Shown here piece after piece: positions 1,179 through 9,346 of a DNA stretch of 20,536 nucleotides; position 1 is the first letter of the stretch, and each line of letters begins with the position of its first letter. The notes under the pieces are model-generated. The model saw nothing but the letters and a program-made list of their open reading frames with translations. It did not search any database and was not told where the DNA came from. A program made the translations under genes and the position numbers. The DNA comes from a virus, in the IMG/VR virus record IMGVR_UViG_3300028388_004174, positions 1 to 20,536 of that record, one strand, 5' to 3'.

Positions 1179-1794
1179 TCTGCGCCTCCAGTAGTCCTGC
1201 AATGCCCTTGCCGCCAGTAAGCAACGGCTTTGTCCCGTTCTTTTGGTTCTCTATGCGATGCCGCGCGTCCGGTAGGGCTTCCAGTGAAACCGGGTCCGGC
1301 GCCGTCAGAAACATTTGTTCCTCCCACGCGATCCTGTCCGGCTCCCGCTGCCCTATCGGCCGCGTAAGCCACCAGCGCGGGCGATCCGTCTTACCGGCGA
1401 TGGCGGACTTGTAGCTCTCGATGAACGCCATCCGGGCGCCGACCATATCGCCCCGGTCGATGGAGTCATGGCAAGCAGCAAGCCCTGCCATGATCTCGTC
1501 CGTGACCCAGCCGCCTTCGTACTCGCTCTTCGGCACGCGATTCCACGCTTCCTCAGGCGCAGGGTGCGGGTTGAGCGCTTCGACGATGTTAGCGATGCGC
1601 GGGAGGAACTCCGACGTTTCGAGCTGCTTGGCCATCAACCCCTCAAACTGCTCGATGCTCACGCGCGCCCGCATCGTGCGCCACCACAGCTTGGCTGCCG
1701 CCTCGGTCAACGTCTTGCCGTAGTAGTCATAAACCGCCGCCAGAGTGTCCTGGAAGCGGGTCTTGTCGGCATCAGTCAAGGTTGAAGTATTCAC
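1171..1794 (-). CDS. Putative replicative helicase loader-like phage replication protein
   Basis: About 207 aa. The N-terminal half (VYDYYGKTLTEAAAKLWWRTM, then IEQFEGLMAKQLETSEFLPRIANIVEAL) has the helical pattern of phage helicase loader/inhibitor domains of the G39P type: an aromatic 'Y..' helix, a W-W helix and 'FLP.IA.I'. Such proteins recruit the replicative helicase to the origin. The C-terminal half is Trp/Pro-rich (RPRWWLTRPIG) and not recognised. GTG 1794 has GGAG nine bases upstream; GTG 1809 is the alternative (212 aa). It overlaps the upstream 74-aa gene by about 23 nt and lies just before the small gene and ssb. The G39P link is a pattern judgement; P-like or DnaT-like loaders are alternatives. 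Confidence 0.7.
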   Translation of the reverse strand: MNTSTLTDADKTRFQDTLAAVYDYYGKTLTEAAAKLWWRTMRARVSIEQFEGLMAKQLETSEFLPRIANIVEALNPHPAPEEAWNRVPKSEYEGGWVTDEIMAGLAACHDSIDRGDMVGARMAFIESYKSAIAGKTDRPRWWLTRPIGQREPDRIAWEEQMFLTAPDPVSLEALPDARHRIENQKNGTKPLLTGGKGIAGLLEAQNG

Positions 1795-1996
1795 GCCGCT
1801 TTGCTCCACGGTTGTTGCCTTTGGGCGGGAATACTCCCGTCCACCTGTTGCGTATCGTCGTGTCCACCATTTCGCGCTGCTGCTCCGGCGTGTGCCGGCT
1901 CAGCAGGGTGACGACCTTCTTTGCCGCCAGGGGCGTGAGAGGCTTGCGGATGTCCTTGCGATGCGCCAAGAAATCCTCCCACGCTTGGCCGTCCAC
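1772..1996 (-). CDS. Detached C-terminal domain of a phage replication protein
   Basis: 74 aa. The sequence AWEDFLAHRKDIRKPLTPLAA...VVTLLSRHTPEQQREMVDTTIRNRWTGVFPPK matches the short domain usually found at the C terminus of phage replisome-organiser or DUF1376-type proteins ('W..F...R......LT..A....L..L.......I..SI..GW.GLFP'). Here it stands alone. The reading frame is open for a few codons upstream of the GTG at 1996 and reads VIPPDVDGQAW, also typical of the domain, but that stretch lies in the -1 frame at the end of the DUF1376 gene. It may be translated alone by coupling, be joined by frameshift, or be a remnant. It overlaps the helicase-loader-like gene. Confidence 0.65.
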   Translation of the reverse strand: MDGQAWEDFLAHRKDIRKPLTPLAAKKVVTLLSRHTPEQQREMVDTTIRNRWTGVFPPKGNNRGAKRREYFNLD

Positions 1997-2007
1997 GTCC
2001 GGGGGGA

Positions 2008-2316
2008 TTACGACTTCTTACCGGCGGCCGATTGCCTAGCCTTCCGGTCCTCCAGCCGCTCACGCTCGACCTCCAGCCGCTTGTTGACCCATCCGCGCTC
2101 CTCCAGCGTCCAGTAGTTCTGGAGGATGTAGCGCAGTGCTTCGATAGGAGGGTTGGCGGCCAGCCTGGCCAGGTGATCCATGTCGTCTGGAAGTGGTCCG
2201 CGCTGCCAGCTCACGGCCAGCAGCAGCAGGTAGACGCCGTGCTCGCAGCACGACAGGCCCATGGTGTCGGCGAGGTAGTCGCCGGGGAAGAACGCGAAGT
2301 AAGGACGTGCAGACAC
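2008..2316 (-). CDS. DUF1376-family phage protein (YdaU-like), short form
   Basis: Members of DUF1376 sit in phage replication modules and are thought to act with replication initiation; the biochemical role is unknown. The signature is clear: PYFAFFPGDYLADTMGLSCCEHGVYLLLL, then PLPDDMDHLARLA and the WTLEERGWVNKRLEVERER segment. The GTG at 2316 (VSARPYF, ~102 aa) fits the family start and has a GGGG-rich ribosome site; the frame also opens from a TTG at 2367, giving a Pro-rich extension I consider unlikely. The protein stops at ARQSAAGKKS, where relatives usually continue into a linker and second domain; that domain appears downstream in another frame. Confidence 0.8.
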   Translation of the reverse strand: MSARPYFAFFPGDYLADTMGLSCCEHGVYLLLLAVSWQRGPLPDDMDHLARLAANPPIEALRYILQNYWTLEERGWVNKRLEVERERLEDRKARQSAAGKKS

Positions 2317-2322
2317 AGAAAA

Positions 2323-2407
2323 CCCCGCTACTCGGGCGAGGGAGCCCGGCCAAGGGCGGGTCGGCAACGCAACGCGACCGCGTCCCTCGCCCCAATAGCG
2401 GGGCGAG
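2323..2407. repeat. Imperfect 21-bp inverted repeat with internal hairpins
   Basis: Positions 2323-2343 and 2383-2403 are reverse complements at 19 of 21 positions, separated by 39 bp. Each arm also folds on itself. In the right arm CTCGCCCC (2386-2393) pairs perfectly with GGGGCGAG (2400-2407) around a 6-nt loop. In the left arm CCCG (2324-2327) pairs with CGGG (2333-2336). No T-tract follows on either strand apart from a short GTTTTC after the left hairpin on the minus strand. It lies in the leader of the DUF1376 gene and may be an attenuator, a translation-control structure or part of an origin. Confidence 0.6.
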
Positions 2408-2454
2408 TCTTGCGTTGCTGTTTTGGCCTTGGGTGGCTAGCCCAAGGCGCATCT

Positions 2455-2460
2455 ATTATA
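2455..2460 (-). promoter_or_regulatory. Possible -10 box for the DUF1376-ssb-mazG segment
   Basis: The minus strand has a perfect TATAAT at 2460-2455, in the gap after the small membrane-protein gene. The only -35-like hexamer is TTGATG at 2486-2481 with a 20-bp spacer, longer than optimal, and there is no extended -10. If used, transcription would start near 2448 and the leader would contain the hairpins at 2323-2407. Weak support as a promoter. Confidence 0.3.
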
Positions 2461-2482
2461 CCGCGCCTCGTCTTTTGCGGCA

Positions 2483-2749
2483 TCAACCGCGCTTTGCCAC
2501 GCGCCACGACTTGACAGCGCAATGCAGCCGCATAGCCGAAACCGCGCCGATCCCGCCACCGAGGCTTATCCACGGCCATGCCGCCCAACCATCAAGCACA
2601 ATTGCGCCGACTACGGCAATTTCGCCGGCCGCTATCAGCATTGGCGTCAAAGCGGCCGCGATATAATGGCCCCCGGTGACGTTGAGCTGTTGGATTGCGC
2701 GACCGAAGACGAGTAGCGCGGTTGCCGCTGCTGCTATTGGCCCGGTCAT
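2483..2749 (-). CDS. Small membrane protein, function unknown
   Basis: 88 aa. It is strongly hydrophobic, with about two to three probable membrane segments: IAAAATALLVFGRAI near the N terminus, YIAAALTPMLIAAGEIAVVGAIVL in the middle, and a shorter WPWISLGGGIGAV. The ATG at 2749 overlaps the helicase stop as ATGA, so it should be co-translated with the helicase. It is not a recognisable holin and sits in a replication operon, not a lysis cassette. The overlap start and the hydrophobic pattern support a real gene, but no family is recognised. Confidence 0.6.
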   Translation of the reverse strand: MTGPIAAAATALLVFGRAIQQLNVTGGHYIAAALTPMLIAAGEIAVVGAIVLDGWAAWPWISLGGGIGAVSAMRLHCAVKSWRVAKRG

Positions 2750-4143
2750 GCTGCAACGCCCATGCGCATAAAACGCGGCAGCTCGATTGGTTCCTTGCCG
2801 CTGTAAATGTTGCTTTGTCTACGCTGCCCAAGTACTTCACTCTTAACGGATTCCGCGGTCTCAACCTTGAGCGCTTTCATCATCGCTTGTGCGTCCTTTT
2901 CTTTGCGCTCCAAGTTTGCTCTAACACTGCCCTCGAGGTCAGAGACAAACAAATATGCCGTTACTTTTCTTTTCTGTCCAAATCTCCAGCATCTACGGAT
3001 AGCTTGGTAATAAGACTCGTAGGAGTCCGTGACGCCAACAAATGCAACATGCGCACAGTGCTGCCAGTTTAACCCCATGCCTGCAATTTTTGGCTTAGTA
3101 ATGAGCACGCGAATATGCCCGTGTGCAAAATCACGAAGCGCCTGCTCTTTTCGCTCTGGCGTGTCATTGCCCCTAATCTCAACAGCATCAGGTATCGCTG
3201 CACGCAGGGCGTCTGCCTCTGCATTTAGCTCGCACCACACTATCCAAGGCTCTTCATTGCCGTTTACCCTTGCTGCGCAAGCGTCGACGCGATGACGCAA
3301 CGAATCTCTGCGCGCTTGCCGACGCTCCGATAACGTGCGGGCTTCTGTTGCAAACAGCTCGCCATTCTTTGGAGCCTGATCATTCGCTACCGATACCTGC
3401 TCAATTTGCAGTGGCGGCAAATCATACATAGACGCATCAAAGCCAAGGTCGGCCGGGCTTTGAATCATCGCGCCCCAAGATGAAACCCACCTCCAGAACT
3501 CGCCGCGAGCATGACCTTTTAGCCTCCAAGATTGAGTCTCGCCGCCGTCATGAACAAAGAACTCGGAAAGCATTTCGCTGCGCGTACACACGCCAAGAAA
3601 CTCTGCGTGCGTACCTAGCTCTGTCCAGTCGTTCGGTGCGGGCGTTGCCGTTGCACACAGGCGATACGGAGTGCTTGCAAAGGCATCCATCAACACGCGC
3701 AGTGTCTTAGCGTCATGGTGTTTGATGATGCTAGACTCGTCAAGAACTACTGCGCCAAAGCGCGACGCATCAAAGCGGTGCAAGCGCTCGTAATTGGTAA
3801 TGTTTAGCCCTGGGCGAACGTCTGCACCGTCGCGGGCATGGGTAACATTTACTCCAATTTCCCTCCCTTCCTCGCTTGTTTGCTCAGCCACAGCAAGCGG
3901 CGCAAGCATCAGCACATCAAGCCCCGTGCGCTCATACACAAGATGAGCCCATGCTATTTGTATTCTGCTTTTCCCGAGTCCTGTATCCGCAAAGACGGCT
4001 GCGCGGCCTTTTCGGCAAGCCCATCTCACTAGCGCGCCTTGATGCGGGAATAGTCTCAGATGATCAATGTCGCGCGCCGCCACGTCAAAACCCTGTGGCT
4101 CATGTGCGCGCAGTTTACTATCGAGAAAAAGGCCGTAATCCAT
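2746..4143 (-). CDS. SF2/SNF2-like DEAD-box helicase
   Basis: ATP-dependent DNA helicase or translocase of superfamily 2, about 465 aa. Residues are counted from GTG 4146. Walker A ADTGLGKS is at about 53-60; the DExx box is DESS at 136-139 (VVLDESSIIK); motif III ATATPAPND is at 165-173; motif V KIAGMGLNWQ is at 353-362; motif VI QAIRRCWRFGQ is at 381-391, with the arginine finger region and the Q typical of SNF2-type proteins. All motor motifs look intact. I prefer ATG 4143, which overlaps the methyltransferase stop as TGATG behind GGGGG; GTG 4146 is equally possible. In related phages this helicase is encoded beside or fused to a DNA methyltransferase, as here. It likely acts in replication or restart. 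Confidence 0.9.
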   Translation of the reverse strand: MDYGLFLDSKLRAHEPQGFDVAARDIDHLRLFPHQGALVRWACRKGRAAVFADTGLGKSRIQIAWAHLVYERTGLDVLMLAPLAVAEQTSEEGREIGVNVTHARDGADVRPGLNITNYERLHRFDASRFGAVVLDESSIIKHHDAKTLRVLMDAFASTPYRLCATATPAPNDWTELGTHAEFLGVCTRSEMLSEFFVHDGGETQSWRLKGHARGEFWRWVSSWGAMIQSPADLGFDASMYDLPPLQIEQVSVANDQAPKNGELFATEARTLSERRQARRDSLRHRVDACAARVNGNEEPWIVWCELNAEADALRAAIPDAVEIRGNDTPERKEQALRDFAHGHIRVLITKPKIAGMGLNWQHCAHVAFVGVTDSYESYYQAIRRCWRFGQKRKVTAYLFVSDLEGSVRANLERKEKDAQAMMKALKVETAESVKSEVLGQRRQSNIYSGKEPIELPRFMRMGVAA

Positions 4144-4913: not shown

Positions 4914-5087
4914 TCAATCTGCCCAAACCTGCCCGCTCACAATACGAGAAACGCTGCATTGCCGAATGCCGTAGCGCTCTGCAAGCTCGCGCTGATTGGC
5001 CTCTCTGGCAAAGTACGCGCGGCGTATCTCTTGTGCCCGCTCAGGCGTCATGTTCCTGTACCTGCTTTTCGGCCTGTGTTGCGTCAT
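4914..5087 (-). CDS. Small helix-turn-helix DNA-binding protein
   Basis: 57 aa, starting MTQHRPKSRYRNMTPERAQEI. The C-terminal part, with ELAERYGIRQCSVSRIVSG, is a compact helix-turn-helix of the resolvase/sigma-like type often seen in small phage proteins ('L.EKYGVSQ..VSRI..G..W'). The basic N terminus would contact DNA. ATG 5087 is chosen because GGAGGTG sits eight bases upstream; the longer open frame to 5216 is antiparallel-like low-complexity sequence inside the neighbour. It overlaps the preceding gene by 47 nt, an unusually long overlap in this window. It is probably a regulator; its target is unknown. Confidence 0.7.
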   Translation of the reverse strand: MTQHRPKSRYRNMTPERAQEIRRAYFAREANQRELAERYGIRQCSVSRIVSGQVWAD

Positions 5088-5355
5088 CTTCGCACCTCCG
5101 TCGTGCTTCTTCTGCTGTGTCAAACGTCCCGAGCCATTCCCGCGGCTGCGGGATGCGCTCGCCTGCTTCGTAGTGCGCCTTCGGCTCCTCGCCGCTCCAG
5201 TGGGTGGCTTCGCCATCGCGCCATGCGCGATAGTCCCAACCTTCAGCCCGATCCGGCCCTAGCGCGATAAAGCGCCACGCGTCGCCGACGCGAATGGCTG
5301 TGACGCGATGCCCTGTGTCAGAGTCCTGCCACGATGCGCCGCGTGTCCAGATCAT
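5041..5355 (-). CDS. Small phage protein of unknown function
   Basis: 104 aa, starting MIWTRGASWQDSDTGHRVTA. It is soluble, Trp-rich and acidic towards the C terminus. The N-terminal two-thirds look like a small beta sheet (HRVTAIRVGDAWRFIALGPD), followed by a helix (TFDTAEEARRRCEDDATQAEK). Similar short proteins occur in phage early regions but I cannot assign a function. Its ATG overlaps the stop of the Cro-like gene as ATGA (5352-5355), so it is the second gene of the leftward early transcript. Confidence 0.7.
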   Translation of the reverse strand: MIWTRGASWQDSDTGHRVTAIRVGDAWRFIALGPDRAEGWDYRAWRDGEATHWSGEEPKAHYEAGERIPQPREWLGTFDTAEEARRRCEDDATQAEKQVQEHDA

Positions 5356-5557: not shown

Positions 5558-5586
5558 AGTATAGCTACAAGTTTTTTTGATGTCTA
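5558..5586 (-). promoter_or_regulatory. Leftward early promoter (near-leaderless)
   Basis: On the minus strand, TAGACA (5586-5581) and TATACT (5563-5558) are separated by exactly 17 bp, each one base from consensus, with an A-tract in the spacer. Predicted start of transcription is at 5551-5549, at or just before the ATG at 5549. It drives the Cro-like gene and probably the whole replication operon. Confidence 0.75.
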
Positions 5587-5589
5587 CGC

Positions 5590-5618
5590 TTGACGTGTGT
5601 TTATGGCTCGGCTACAGT
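5590..5618 (+). promoter_or_regulatory. Rightward early promoter
   Basis: TTGACG (5590-5595) and TACAGT (5613-5618) are separated by 17 bp, a good sigma70 match. It is back-to-back with the leftward promoter, the two -35 boxes being 4 bp apart, so one bound repressor could control both. Transcription would start near 5625 and give a leader of about 150 nt containing the GGCNN array and a hairpin. Confidence 0.7.
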
Positions 5619-5635
5619 ATGCCTCATGCCAGCGA

Positions 5636-5694
5636 GGCAAGGCGGGGCTTGGCAGGGCCGGGCAAGGCGCGGCAAGACACGGCAGGCGAGGCAA
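5636..5694 (+). repeat. GGCNN pentanucleotide array 1
   Basis: Twelve near-contiguous 5-nt units with fixed GGC and variable last two bases: GGCAA, GGCGG, GGCTT, GGCAG, GGCCG, GGCAA, GGCGC, GGCAA, then one off-consensus GACAC, a 4-nt GGCA, GGCGA and GGCAA. It lies in the 5' leader of the rightward early transcript. Positions 5670-5687 are identical to 7183-7200 in the second array. Because the period is 5, it is not a codon repeat. Confidence 0.85.
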
Positions 5695-5704
5695 AGACCG
5701 ATGT

Positions 5705-5724
5705 GGGCGACGGTTAAATCGCCC
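5705..5724 (+). promoter_or_regulatory. Leader hairpin before the 271-aa gene
   Basis: GGGCGA (5705-5710) pairs with TCGCCC (5719-5724) around an 8-nt A/T-rich loop, between the GGCNN array and the start codon at 5775. No T-tract follows, so it is more likely an RNA structure in the leader than a terminator. Confidence 0.4.
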
Positions 5725-5774
5725 TAGCAACAGCGCAGCAATGATCGCTGCAAAACAGAAAGAGAGACAAACCA

Positions 5775-6590
5775 ATGGCAACACGTAAGACAACCGACGT
5801 TTCTATCGAGGTTCAAGAGCTTCGACGCGAGACTTTCGAGGTCGTGATTCTCGGCGAATCGCCGCTGATCATGAACGCGATGAGCGCAAAAGCGATGCAG
5901 CAGCTCCTGTTGCCTCCGGGAAGAAAGACCGGAGCTGATAAGGCGTCAACCCTGAAACATCAGCCCTATGCAGAGTTTGTGCGCAGCATGTACACCGCGC
6001 GGTCAGAGGATGCGGACACGCTGGCAGTCATTAAGGCGACCGCTCCGAAGGGCGCCATTATGGGCGCGGCTCTCGATATGCCGGGCGCGACCAAAACCAA
6101 GATCGGCAGACTCCTGTTCGTCGAGGGCATCCACGCTACTGACGAGATCGGTATTTTTGGCGTACCCGAAATGATGATGGCCGTGACCCGTTCCGCGGAC
6201 ATCAACAAGACGCCGGATGTGCGCACACGCGCGATATTCCCGACTTGGTGCGCAAAGCTGCGCGTGACCTACACTGTGCCGCTGCTTAATCAGCGCACGG
6301 TGGCCAACCTCCTGGCGGCTGCTGGCATGACGCAGGGCATCGGCGACTGGCGCGTCGAGAAGGGCAGCGGCAACTACGGCCGCTTCCAGGTGGTAGACCC
6401 GCAGCATCCGGTTGTGCAGATGCTGATGAGCACCGGGAACCGCGAAGCGCAGATCGAAGCCATCAAGAGCCCGGCCTACTATGATTCCGAGACGGAAGAG
6501 CTTGCCAGTTGGTATGACTCAGAGATCGAGCGGCGGGGCATGACGGGGCTGCTGGATAAGACCCCGGCAATGGCTGAGATGAACGACTAA
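5775..6590 (+). CDS. Phage early protein of unknown function (271 aa)
   Basis: First gene of the rightward early operon. Recognisable patterns are GESPLIMNAMSAKAMQQLLLPPGRK, KHQPYAEFVRSMYTAR, the Ala/Gly-rich PKGAIMGAALDMPGATKTKIGRLLFVEGI, DVRTRAIFPTWCAKLRVTYT and a Gly-rich GIGDWRVEKGSGNYGRFQV near residue 200. Similar proteins occur beside recombination genes in other phages, but I know no tested function. The 'IMN...', 'G..K' and Gly-rich 'G.G..R...YGRF' spacing recalls RAMP/Cas7-like RNA-binding folds; this is a speculative comparison. ATG 5775 follows an AGAGAG ribosome site. The long leader with repeats suggests post-transcriptional control. Confidence 0.75.
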   Translation: MATRKTTDVSIEVQELRRETFEVVILGESPLIMNAMSAKAMQQLLLPPGRKTGADKASTLKHQPYAEFVRSMYTARSEDADTLAVIKATAPKGAIMGAALDMPGATKTKIGRLLFVEGIHATDEIGIFGVPEMMMAVTRSADINKTPDVRTRAIFPTWCAKLRVTYTVPLLNQRTVANLLAAAGMTQGIGDWRVEKGSGNYGRFQVVDPQHPVVQMLMSTGNREAQIEAIKSPAYYDSETEELASWYDSEIERRGMTGLLDKTPAMAEMND

Positions 6591-6643
6591 CCAGCGCGAT
6601 CCTGCCTAGGGACGGGCGCTGATACAAGTAACCCGAGAAAACT

Positions 6644-7147
6644 ATGATGAGCGAAGCCAACGATCGCAAGCAAGCGATGGCTGCCGAACTCAATCGGCTT
6701 GCTAAACAAAATGGCGGCAAGATCACGCCGAGAATGATCGTAGACGCGGCGCGCGACGAGAACTCGCCGCTCCATGACTACTTCGAGTGGAACGACGATG
6801 TGGCCGCAGAACGATACCGCGAAATGCAGGCCCGAACGCTGCTGCGCAGTGTGACGCTGAAAGTCAGCACCGAGACCAAGAGGTTCGATGTAAACCAATA
6901 CATCCGCGACCCCGAAGCCAAGCCCCAAGATCAGGGGTACGTGAGCGTGACCGCCATTCGCTCGCAGCAAGACCTTGCGAGAGACGCGCTACTCGCTGAG
7001 TTTGACCGCGCCGCCGCAAACCTGCGTCGTGCTCGGGCTTACGCAAAATACTTCAACCTACTGCCGTTGATGGACGAGCTTGAAGATCAGGTTGGGTTGG
7101 CCCGCGCGACCATTGAGTCCGCAGCCGCGAACAGCCAAGCGGCCTAA
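6644..7147 (+). CDS. Phage protein of unknown function (167 aa)
   Basis: The N-terminal half contains KITPRMIVDAARDENSPLHDYFEWNDDVAAERYREMQARTLLRSV, a pattern seen in many phage early proteins with an alpha-helical 'D A R D . . S P L H . Y F E W D' motif. The C-terminal half is a long helix (LLAEFDRAAANLRRARAYAKYFNLL...LEDQVGLARATI), probably a coiled coil used for assembly. No catalytic motif is visible. It starts at ATG 6644 or 6647, 53 bp after the preceding gene; that gap has a possible hairpin, CAGCGC (6592-6597) with GCGCTG (6616-6621). Its recurrent company with the 271-aa type and ERF genes suggests a role in recombination or replication. Confidence 0.75.
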   Translation: MMSEANDRKQAMAAELNRLAKQNGGKITPRMIVDAARDENSPLHDYFEWNDDVAAERYREMQARTLLRSVTLKVSTETKRFDVNQYIRDPEAKPQDQGYVSVTAIRSQQDLARDALLAEFDRAAANLRRARAYAKYFNLLPLMDELEDQVGLARATIESAAANSQAA

Positions 7148-7183
7148 CGGAATCGATTTGCCACGGACGGCGCTGTTGCGCTC

Positions 7184-7266
7184 GGCAAGACACGGCAGGC
7201 ATGGCAAGGCCAGGCGAGGCAAGGCGCGGCCGGGCTAGGCTCGGCATGGCGAGGCAGGCGTGGCGC
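7184..7266 (+). repeat. GGCNN pentanucleotide array 2
   Basis: Starts GGCAA, GACAC, GGCA as in array 1, then runs GGCAT, GGCAA, GGCCA, GGCGA, GGCAA, GGCGC, GGCCG, GGCTA, GGCTC, GGCAT, GGCGA, GGCA, GGCGT and a terminal GGC. The unit boundaries stay in register except at two 4-nt units. It fills most of the 144-bp gap between the 167-aa gene and the nuclease-like gene. Shares 18 identical bases (7183-7200) with array 1, including the one irregular unit. Confidence 0.85.
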
Positions 7267-7291: not shown

Positions 7292-7741
7292 ATGAGCAAG
7301 CACACTGAGCGCACAATCGCGCTACTGCAGGAAGCAGGCATGCAATGCGACGTGGTAGAGCGGTGGATTCCCGGCGCAGGAGTACGCCGAGACTTCCTCG
7401 GCTGCATCGACATAATCGCCTTCAACCACGCCACTACGCTAGGCGTGCAGAGTTGCGGCGAGGATTTTGCCCAACACGCGCTGAAAATGCTTGACGAGCC
7501 GAGGCTTGGGCACTGGCTGGAAGCCCCTAAGCGCCACGCCGTGCTCGTCGGCTGGCGCAGGCTAGCCGCGTACCGCAAAGACGGGACGCGAGCCGCACGG
7601 GACCGCTGGGCACCTCGCGTGCAGTATTTCGCGCGATCTGGCGGGAAAGTGATATTTGACGGGCTGGAGCTCGAACACCTGCGCCGCTACTCTTGGCCGG
7701 ATGTCGATCCTATCGACCAGAACCTACAGGGCAAAAACTAA
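7292..7741 (+). CDS. Putative PD-(D/E)XK nuclease-like phage protein
   Basis: 149 aa. The segment VVERWIPGAGVRRDFLGCIDIIAF....TLGVQSCG resembles a minimal restriction/resolvase-type nuclease core: a Glu helix (E24), Asp40 at the end of a strand, and a strand 'LGVQ' (Gln53), where Gln replaces the usual Glu as in some phage members. Later parts (HAVLVGWRRLAAYRKDG, WAPRVQYFARSGG) fit a small alpha/beta nuclease fold. A catalytic Lys after the LGVQ strand is not evident, so activity is uncertain. The ATG is preceded by array 2, with AAAAAAGTGAGG providing a possible ribosome site. It lies close to recombination genes, suggesting processing of branched or damaged DNA. Confidence 0.55.
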   Translation: MSKHTERTIALLQEAGMQCDVVERWIPGAGVRRDFLGCIDIIAFNHATTLGVQSCGEDFAQHALKMLDEPRLGHWLEAPKRHAVLVGWRRLAAYRKDGTRAARDRWAPRVQYFARSGGKVIFDGLELEHLRRYSWPDVDPIDQNLQGKN

Positions 7742-8767: not shown

Positions 8768-9346
8768 ATGACAGAGCACAAAACAATCTATGCGGCACTT
8801 CTTGCCGCTCAATCGAAATTCAAGCCAGCGCTAAAAACGGCGCTGAACAAGCATTTCGGCTCCAAGTACGCCGACCTCCAGGCGTGCTTGGATGCCGTCA
8901 TGCCTGCCCTCTCGGCCGAGGGCATCGTGATTCACTGGAGCCTGCGAAGTACTGACACATGGGTGGTATCGTGCCATCTGTACCATGTCGCCTCCGAAAG
9001 TGGTATCTCCTGCGATTGGCCTGTGATCGCTAGCAAGCAGGACGCGCAAGGCTTCGCGAGCAGCTCGACGTATGCCAGGCGCTATTCGCTTATGGCGGTC
9101 GTCGGCATTGCGCCAGAGGATGACGACGGCAACGCTGCTGCATCGACATCTGCACCGCAAGTTGCGCAAGCAGAAAAACAAGCATCCGCTCTTTTAAGCG
9201 GTTGCATTGCCGCCATTGAGCACGGCGACGACGAGTGGCTCGCTGCAAACGTGCTTGCGGCGCCGCCCTCCGTGCGGGCGGTGATTGCGCGCTCTCTGAC
9301 GGCAGAACAGAAGCGATACCTTGCGTCGCTCAAGGAAGGCGACTAA
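8768..9346 (+). CDS. erf: ERF-family single-strand annealing protein
   Basis: 192 aa. ERF proteins anneal complementary single strands in RecA-independent phage recombination. The signature region is intact: KHFGSKYADLQACLDAVMPALSAEG (28-52) and AQGFASSSTYARRYSLMAVVGIAPEDDDGNAA (93-124). Then comes a variable Ala/Gln linker and a C-terminal helical domain (IEHGDDEWLAANVLAA, LTAEQKRYLASLKEGD). The ATG at 8768 lies 34 nt after the predicted -10 box. No partner exonuclease of the Exo/RecE type is next to it, as is common for ERF. Control by the divergent repressor suggests timed or conditional expression. Confidence 0.9.
   Translation: MTEHKTIYAALLAAQSKFKPALKTALNKHFGSKYADLQACLDAVMPALSAEGIVIHWSLRSTDTWVVSCHLYHVASESGISCDWPVIASKQDAQGFASSSTYARRYSLMAVVGIAPEDDDGNAAASTSAPQVAQAEKQASALLSGCIAAIEHGDDEWLAANVLAAPPSVRAVIARSLTAEQKRYLASLKEGD

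Follow-up and report, generated by a model that had tools for sequence, protein, structure and literature searches.

Two GGCNN arrays and their neighbouring genes

The window, a 20,536-nt stretch of viral DNA, carries on its plus strand two arrays of 5-nt GGCNN units, one upstream of a gene for a 271-aa protein and the other downstream of the following gene for a 167-aa protein (Table 1). Array 1 consists of 12 units (GGCAA GGCGG GGCTT GGCAG GGCCG GGCAA GGCGC GGCAA GACAC GGCA GGCGA GGCAA). Array 2 consists of 17 units, of which the first nine are GGCAA GACAC GGCA GGCAT GGCAA GGCCA GGCGA GGCAA GGCGC and the last eight GGCCG GGCTA GGCTC GGCAT GGCGA GGCA GGCGT GGCGC. Unit positions 1–3 are invariant in the window except for one GACAC per array, and positions 4–5 are variable. 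Array 1 ends 80 nt before the ATG at 5775, and array 2, which lies between the 167-aa accessory gene and a 149-aa gene, ends 25 nt before the ATG at 7292; both arrays precede plus-strand genes, as had been noted.

Exact matches to six consecutive GGCNN units occur ten times in the window, all on the plus strand and every one within array 1 or array 2, and none was found in 100 dinucleotide-preserving shuffles of the window. A period-5 parser run on both strands recovered the 12 and the 17 units and no other array. The exact-match count, the parser and the shuffles thus confirm the two arrays of the original prediction. A direct blastn search with array 2 against phage records gave no match, and low-complexity filtering is the likely reason.

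Table 1 Features located or predicted in the array region of the window
Feature	Position	Strand	Basis or content
Sigma-70-like promoter TTGACG-17-TACAGT (inferred)	5590-5618	+	Consensus scan
Putative vrRNA1 repeat tract (array 1)	5636-5694	+	9 units (one GACAC), GGCA at 5681-5684, 2 units
Candidate vrRNA1 tail, predicted H-type pseudoknot	5697-5724	+	ACCG-ATGT-GGGCGA-CGGT-TAAA-TCGCCC
vipr, predicted 271-aa RAMP protein	5775-6590	+	phrog_4652; profile match to 36pp_D; AlphaFold2; Foldseek
Candidate vap (vipr-accessory protein), 167 aa, phrog_15946	6644-7147	+	Linkage to vipr
Putative vrRNA2 repeat tract (array 2)	7184-7266	+	2 units, GGCA, 11 units, GGCA, 2 units
4-nt boundary unit GGCA	7194-7197	+	Parser, periodicity
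11-unit guide between GGCA boundaries (putative)	7198-7252	+	NN = AT AA CA GA AA GC CG TA TC AT GA
4-nt boundary unit GGCA	7253-7256	+	Parser, periodicity

Arrays in other viruses and their link to one gene family

Searching IMG/VR with an exact 9-unit GGCNN pattern yielded at least 120 stretches, and the locus set comprises 121 listed array loci, the window included. Across these 121 loci, successive units are spaced by 5 nt in 3,098 cases (95%), by 4 nt in 149 (4.6%) and by 6 nt in 16 (0.5%). The statement that the last two bases vary freely proved slightly too strong: at the fifth position the four bases are used about evenly (A.27, C.26, G.23, T.24), and at the fourth purines are favoured (A.34 and G.34, with T.19 and C.13). 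Across relatives GGC is fixed and NN is variable, the triplet drifting far less than the dinucleotide rather than equally, which bears out the earlier argument for selection on GGC at 5-nt spacing. All arrays lie on one strand in 119 of the 121 listed loci, and GC content among these loci ranges from 39% to about 71%.

The array loci were chosen by DNA pattern alone. An iterated profile nevertheless detected the family of the 271-aa protein in 87 of the 121 listed, and in the loci with a family gene 292 arrays lie on the strand of that gene and 8 on the opposite strand. A control of 132 IMG/VR loci picked with unrelated patterns, amounting to 1.14 Mb versus 1.04 Mb for the array loci, contained no member of the 271-aa family, no member of the 167-aa family and no 8-unit array. 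Of the arrays that lie downstream of the 271-aa family gene in the listed loci, roughly one in two begins no more than 15 nt after its stop codon, and the upstream arrays leave a gap of 21 nt or more to its start. The arrays of relatives thus adjoin the same gene and are found again at comparable sites, in support of the suggestion that the then unknown 271-aa product is the partner of the arrays.

Identification of the 271-aa protein and its candidate accessory gene

The original prediction knew of no described function for such an element. The VIPR system (Viral Interference Programmable Repeat) was reported in a preprint of April 2026 (bioRxiv 2026.04.26.720920; PMC13142463), and in the characterised systems NN is the guide. 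As described in its main text, VIPR combines a RAMP protein encoded by the phage with an accessory gene (vap) and with vrRNAs that carry 9–16 YNNGG repeats; through their NN dinucleotides these RNAs pair with double-stranded DNA, one target base being skipped per unit (PMC13142463). In nature VIPR is mostly aimed at competing phages and satellites, and transcription is repressed by programmed complexes. The same text describes a Vipr architecture of RRM core, G-loop and thumb, and a 3' tail after the vrRNA repeats that is a pseudoknot in the SUSP1 clade (PMC13142463). VIPR has been proposed to be the phage-borne forerunner from which CRISPR RAMP effectors arose. The arrays of the window match the published vrRNA form (9–16 GGY/NN repeats with hypervariable NN), having 12 and 17 units and an 11-unit guide between boundaries.

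Pfam searches with the 271-, 167- and 149-aa genes gave no significant match, and hence no family for the 271- or the 167-aa protein. When the profile of the 271-aa family was compared with PDB sequences, the single significant match was 36pp_D, 'SUSP1 Vipr protein' (E = 2.3e-41, positions 3–189), and it covers almost the full SUSP1 chain. All 71 aligned family members belong to phrog_4652, as does SUSP1 Vipr (1.4e-96). Despite the weak pairwise match between the window protein and SUSP1 Vipr (28% over 71 aa), the family profile is, as far as sequence comparison goes, decisive for the predicted Vipr identity. The 271-aa protein contains the motif R.R..F..W and a G-loop, AGMTQGIGDWR...GRF, in which GIGDWR is conserved in the family alignment. 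Its AlphaFold2 model has a mean pLDDT of 92.8, and the best PDB matches of this model in Foldseek are RAMP subunits of the Csm3/Cas7 type (E = 5e-6, probability 1.0). We identify the locus as VIPR because the profile of the 271-aa family matches SUSP1 Vipr and the predicted fold is that of Cas7/Csm3 RAMPs. At its C-terminus the 271-aa protein has a helical extension of ~65 aa (6396–6590 in the window), which is also present in array loci L047 and L099 and is missing in most aligned Viprs.

The 167-aa protein is a candidate accessory protein (Vap) of the window locus. Of the 32 matches to its family, phrog_15946, 28 are in loci where a Vipr gene was mapped, on the strand of that gene and no more than about 500 nt away from it; the remaining 4 are in phage records that also carry phrog_4652. 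In 32 phage records of Mycobacterium and Gordonia, homologues of the two families are immediate neighbours, and 27 Mycobacterium records carry both genes. The 167-aa protein has no confident fold match in structure comparison and shows no sequence relationship to SUSP1 vap1 (phrog_5926). Another family of small proteins (~160 aa) is encoded no more than 25 nt away from arrays in loci L004, L016, L055, L081 and L115 and is possibly a further accessory gene.

Four-nucleotide units within the arrays

The original prediction had also remarked on a few 4-nt units in the arrays. These units (GGCA at 5681, 7194 and 7253) are real and do not behave as random slips: in long arrays GGCA recurs regularly, with GGCT in its place in locus L114. 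Counted in 5-nt units, the gap from one GGCA or GGCT to the next peaks at 9, and 77% of the gaps fall within 7–13 units, compared with 26% (maximum 35%) when the order of units is shuffled. The coefficient of variation of the spacing is 0.39, against ~1 for random placement. Variability of NN is 3.5–3.7 bits beside the boundary and about 3.9 bits inside the guides. From this pattern we infer that a 4-nt GGCA unit marks the junction of consecutive guides of ~9–11 units each. The 18-nt stretch common to both arrays, whose identity we confirmed (5670–5687 = 7183–7200), reads C GGCAA GACAC GGCA GGC and would correspond to a GGCA boundary plus its neighbouring units.

Among Vipr loci, 28 of the 31 that have phrog_15946 contain boundary units, versus 10 of 61 without it (Fisher P = 4e-12, relatedness ignored). 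We tentatively propose that in the phrog_15946 branch GGCA or GGCT ends one guide of 9–11 units and begins the next within a tract, the accessory protein or Vipr reading the slip for capping or processing; we regard this as a real possibility, though somewhat less likely than not. The 4-nt boundary unit is not mentioned in the main text of PMC13142463, and the 'staggered arrays with overlapping vrRNAs' of its fig. S18 may be the same thing as the 4-nt punctuation. An array of a different style from this continuous punctuation occurs in locus L099 (minus strand, 3451–3663), where an exact repeated spacer, GGGTGAACGTGAAGTGAC, following GGCA GGCAT parts successive guides.

Promoter, RNA tail and target search

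A sigma-70 consensus scan of the region gave 3 sites versus 0.7 in shuffles, and the site upstream of array 1 predicts a transcription start near 5625, about 11 nt before the array. Two divergent sigma-70-like promoters stand back to back at 5558–5618 (TAGACA-17-TATACT on the minus strand, TTGACG-17-TACAGT on the plus strand) and separate the VIPR locus from minus-strand genes that include one for an HTH protein (4914–5216).

The candidate tail of array 1 begins 2 nt past the last unit and has the element order, A-rich loop and offset of the SUSP1 tails, with different stems. The threshold pseudoknot score of 12.5 is reached by 14 of 185 array flanks, whereas shuffling the flanks leaves on average 1.4 (maximum 5) that reach it. 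The stem GGGCGA/TCGCCC of the candidate tail is present in the MFE fold too. The flank scan found no pseudoknot tail after array 2, and an Rfam scan of the window found no RNA family. The 136-nt RNA of array 1 and its flank folds with a z of −0.42, its stability no higher than that of shuffles, so that a conventional stable leader is not supported. Directly after arrays in locus L013 (3' of 1661) and locus L042 (3' of the second array) lies a pseudoknot-like tail, GAAC-C-TGGGYA-C-GTTC-GMAAAC-TGCCCA, of the same topology as those of SUSP1 and the window and with other stems.

Under the published 1-nt skip rule (PMC13142463, main text), guide 2 would read the target ATxAAxCAxGAxAAxGCxCGxTAxTCxATxGA. 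Exact 8-unit seeds of guides 1 and 2 with a 1-nt skip match IMG/VR about as often as expected by chance, and none of these matches extends along the guide. Recurrent KGLSRNAK matches were rejected as targets, as they end at a stop codon and the next guide unit is mismatched; the sole 2-mismatch match in 300 genomes, in a malic-enzyme gene, was also rejected, being about the chance expectation. When skip lengths were compared in a small set of loci, near-matches numbered 7 (skip 1), 10 (skip 0) and 10 (skip 2), so that this set did not separate the skip lengths or reproduce the published rule. No target was found, and it is therefore homology alone that argues for targeting by the window locus. 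An 11-unit guide of mycobacteriophage Saal, read with a 1-nt skip, matches 21 of 22 bases in a single IMG/VR contig (L379, reverse strand, 798), which may be due to chance.

Discussion

Region 5590–7266 is in our judgement very probably a VIPR locus, in which the arrays serve as guide vrRNAs of a Vipr RAMP, with a Vap. Homology, fold, gene–array linkage, array grammar, the pseudoknot-like tail and boundary periodicity were established in the present analysis and carry this reading; RNA binding, the skip rule and repression come from the main text of PMC13142463 and would hold by extension for the window phage and its targets. Both arrays would be transcribed as vrRNAs, along which the 271-aa Vipr would bind in many copies, probably one for each GGCNN unit. 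The dinucleotides NN would then be offered to double-stranded DNA, the target being read NN-x-NN-x with one base skipped per unit, and the 4-nt GGCA units would split an array into guides of about 9–11 units. By analogy with the characterised systems, the window phage would most likely block transcription of competing phages or satellites.

Other roles had been suggested for the arrays, among them a generic protein-binding platform, which finds no support. That the arrays are cis-acting leaders, in which Vipr or another protein on GGCNN repeats of the mRNA controls downstream translation in the manner of TRAP, seems to us improbable. TRAP binds (G/U)AG triplets with 2-nt spacers, one subunit per unit, and its targets resemble GGCNN arrays in this plan of a triplet plus a 2-nt spacer; TRAP spacers carry no information, and TRAP has no DNA target. 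A leader would fit the intercistronic position of the arrays, their nearly constant placement on the coding strand and the short distance from array 2 to the next start codon, and autoregulation could coexist with a guide function. A pure leader would need neither hypervariable NN nor bounded modules of 9–11 units, nor would it require a tail whose pseudoknot persists as the sequences of the stems change; moreover, several arrays are long multi-module tracts.

The Erf annealing protein had been named as a possible partner, and recombination between modules as a possible function. An Erf gene does lie in the window (8768–9346) and the arrays are intergenic, but Erf relatives occur in only 6 listed array loci versus 87 with the 271-aa family, the NN diversity lowers homology between arrays, and the strand bias (292 versus 8) is likewise unfavourable; we give an Erf platform or an inter-module hotspot almost no credence. 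Equally remote is an origin of the arrays as neutral, low-complexity GC repeats produced by slippage. In bacterial genomes most exact 10-unit GGCNN matches are repeats without a Vipr gene nearby (one is present at 5 of ~120 loci), so the bare pattern can arise otherwise. The viral arrays, by contrast, are strongly tied to one gene family and exist even in contigs of 39% GC; their GGC is fixed while the fifth base is uniform, their module lengths are regular, and in relatives GGC drift is much lower than NN drift.

The VIPR reading of the window can be compared with several known systems. Like the RAMP backbone of Class 1 CRISPR systems (Cas7/Csm3), the window Vipr has the corresponding predicted fold and a G-rich loop. 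Cas7/Csm3 subunits are arranged along the guide RNA, with pairing interrupted periodically. CRISPR loci consist of repeats and spacers, whereas the guide information of the window would be split into dinucleotides; neither CRISPR repeats nor spacers were found in the window, whose tandem repeats include none of the CRISPR type, and the Pfam search of the 271-, 167- and 149-aa genes gave no cas match. The closest characterised likeness is to the type II VIPR of Escherichia phage SUSP1 (PMC13142463), which shares a Vipr of the same PHROG, GGY/NN repeats, one vrRNA upstream and one downstream of vipr–vap, and, as predicted for array 1, a pseudoknot tail directly after the vrRNA1 repeats. SUSP1 differs in having mainly GGT units without 4-nt boundary units and an accessory protein (phrog_5926) unrelated in sequence to phrog_15946; the window Vipr has the C-terminal extension, and array 2 of the window is without a tail.

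The window locus belongs to the VIPR class already described in PMC13142463 and is no new kind of element. It adds a VIPR system whose accessory protein and array grammar are unlike those of the characterised one. The accessory-linked punctuation of the arrays may be new. With a periodic GGCA boundary each guide of a punctuated locus could be read separately, and targets could therefore be searched for with arrays that resemble one long tract. It may also be new to regard as VIPR loci the phrog_4652/phrog_15946 pairs found in mycobacteriophages, in Gordonia phages and in a cyanophage. On this view VIPR-like loci would exist in mycobacteriophages and Gordonia phages that are well studied and whose copies of these genes carry only the label hypothetical.

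In mycobacteriophage Saal, Gordonia phages UmaThurman and ODay and cyanophage Cy-LDV1, as in the window, phrog_4652 and phrog_15946 stand beside GGCNN arrays; in these phages the gene pair is annotated only as hypothetical proteins. The arrays lie before, between or after the pair, with GGCA boundaries mostly 7–12 units apart. Unlike the window with its two short arrays, these phages have 33–69 units per locus and several tandem guides. A 51-unit GGCNN array in Saal (L341, NC_023580.1, 2094–2344), with GGCA every 8–11 units, immediately precedes gene 51 (Vipr) and gene 52 (phrog_15946). Cy-LDV1 (L344, BK059895.1), a cyanophage of Cylindrospermopsis, has a VIPR-like locus at 1557–3150 with a Vipr homologue of phrog_4652, a phrog_15946 protein and two GGCA-punctuated arrays.
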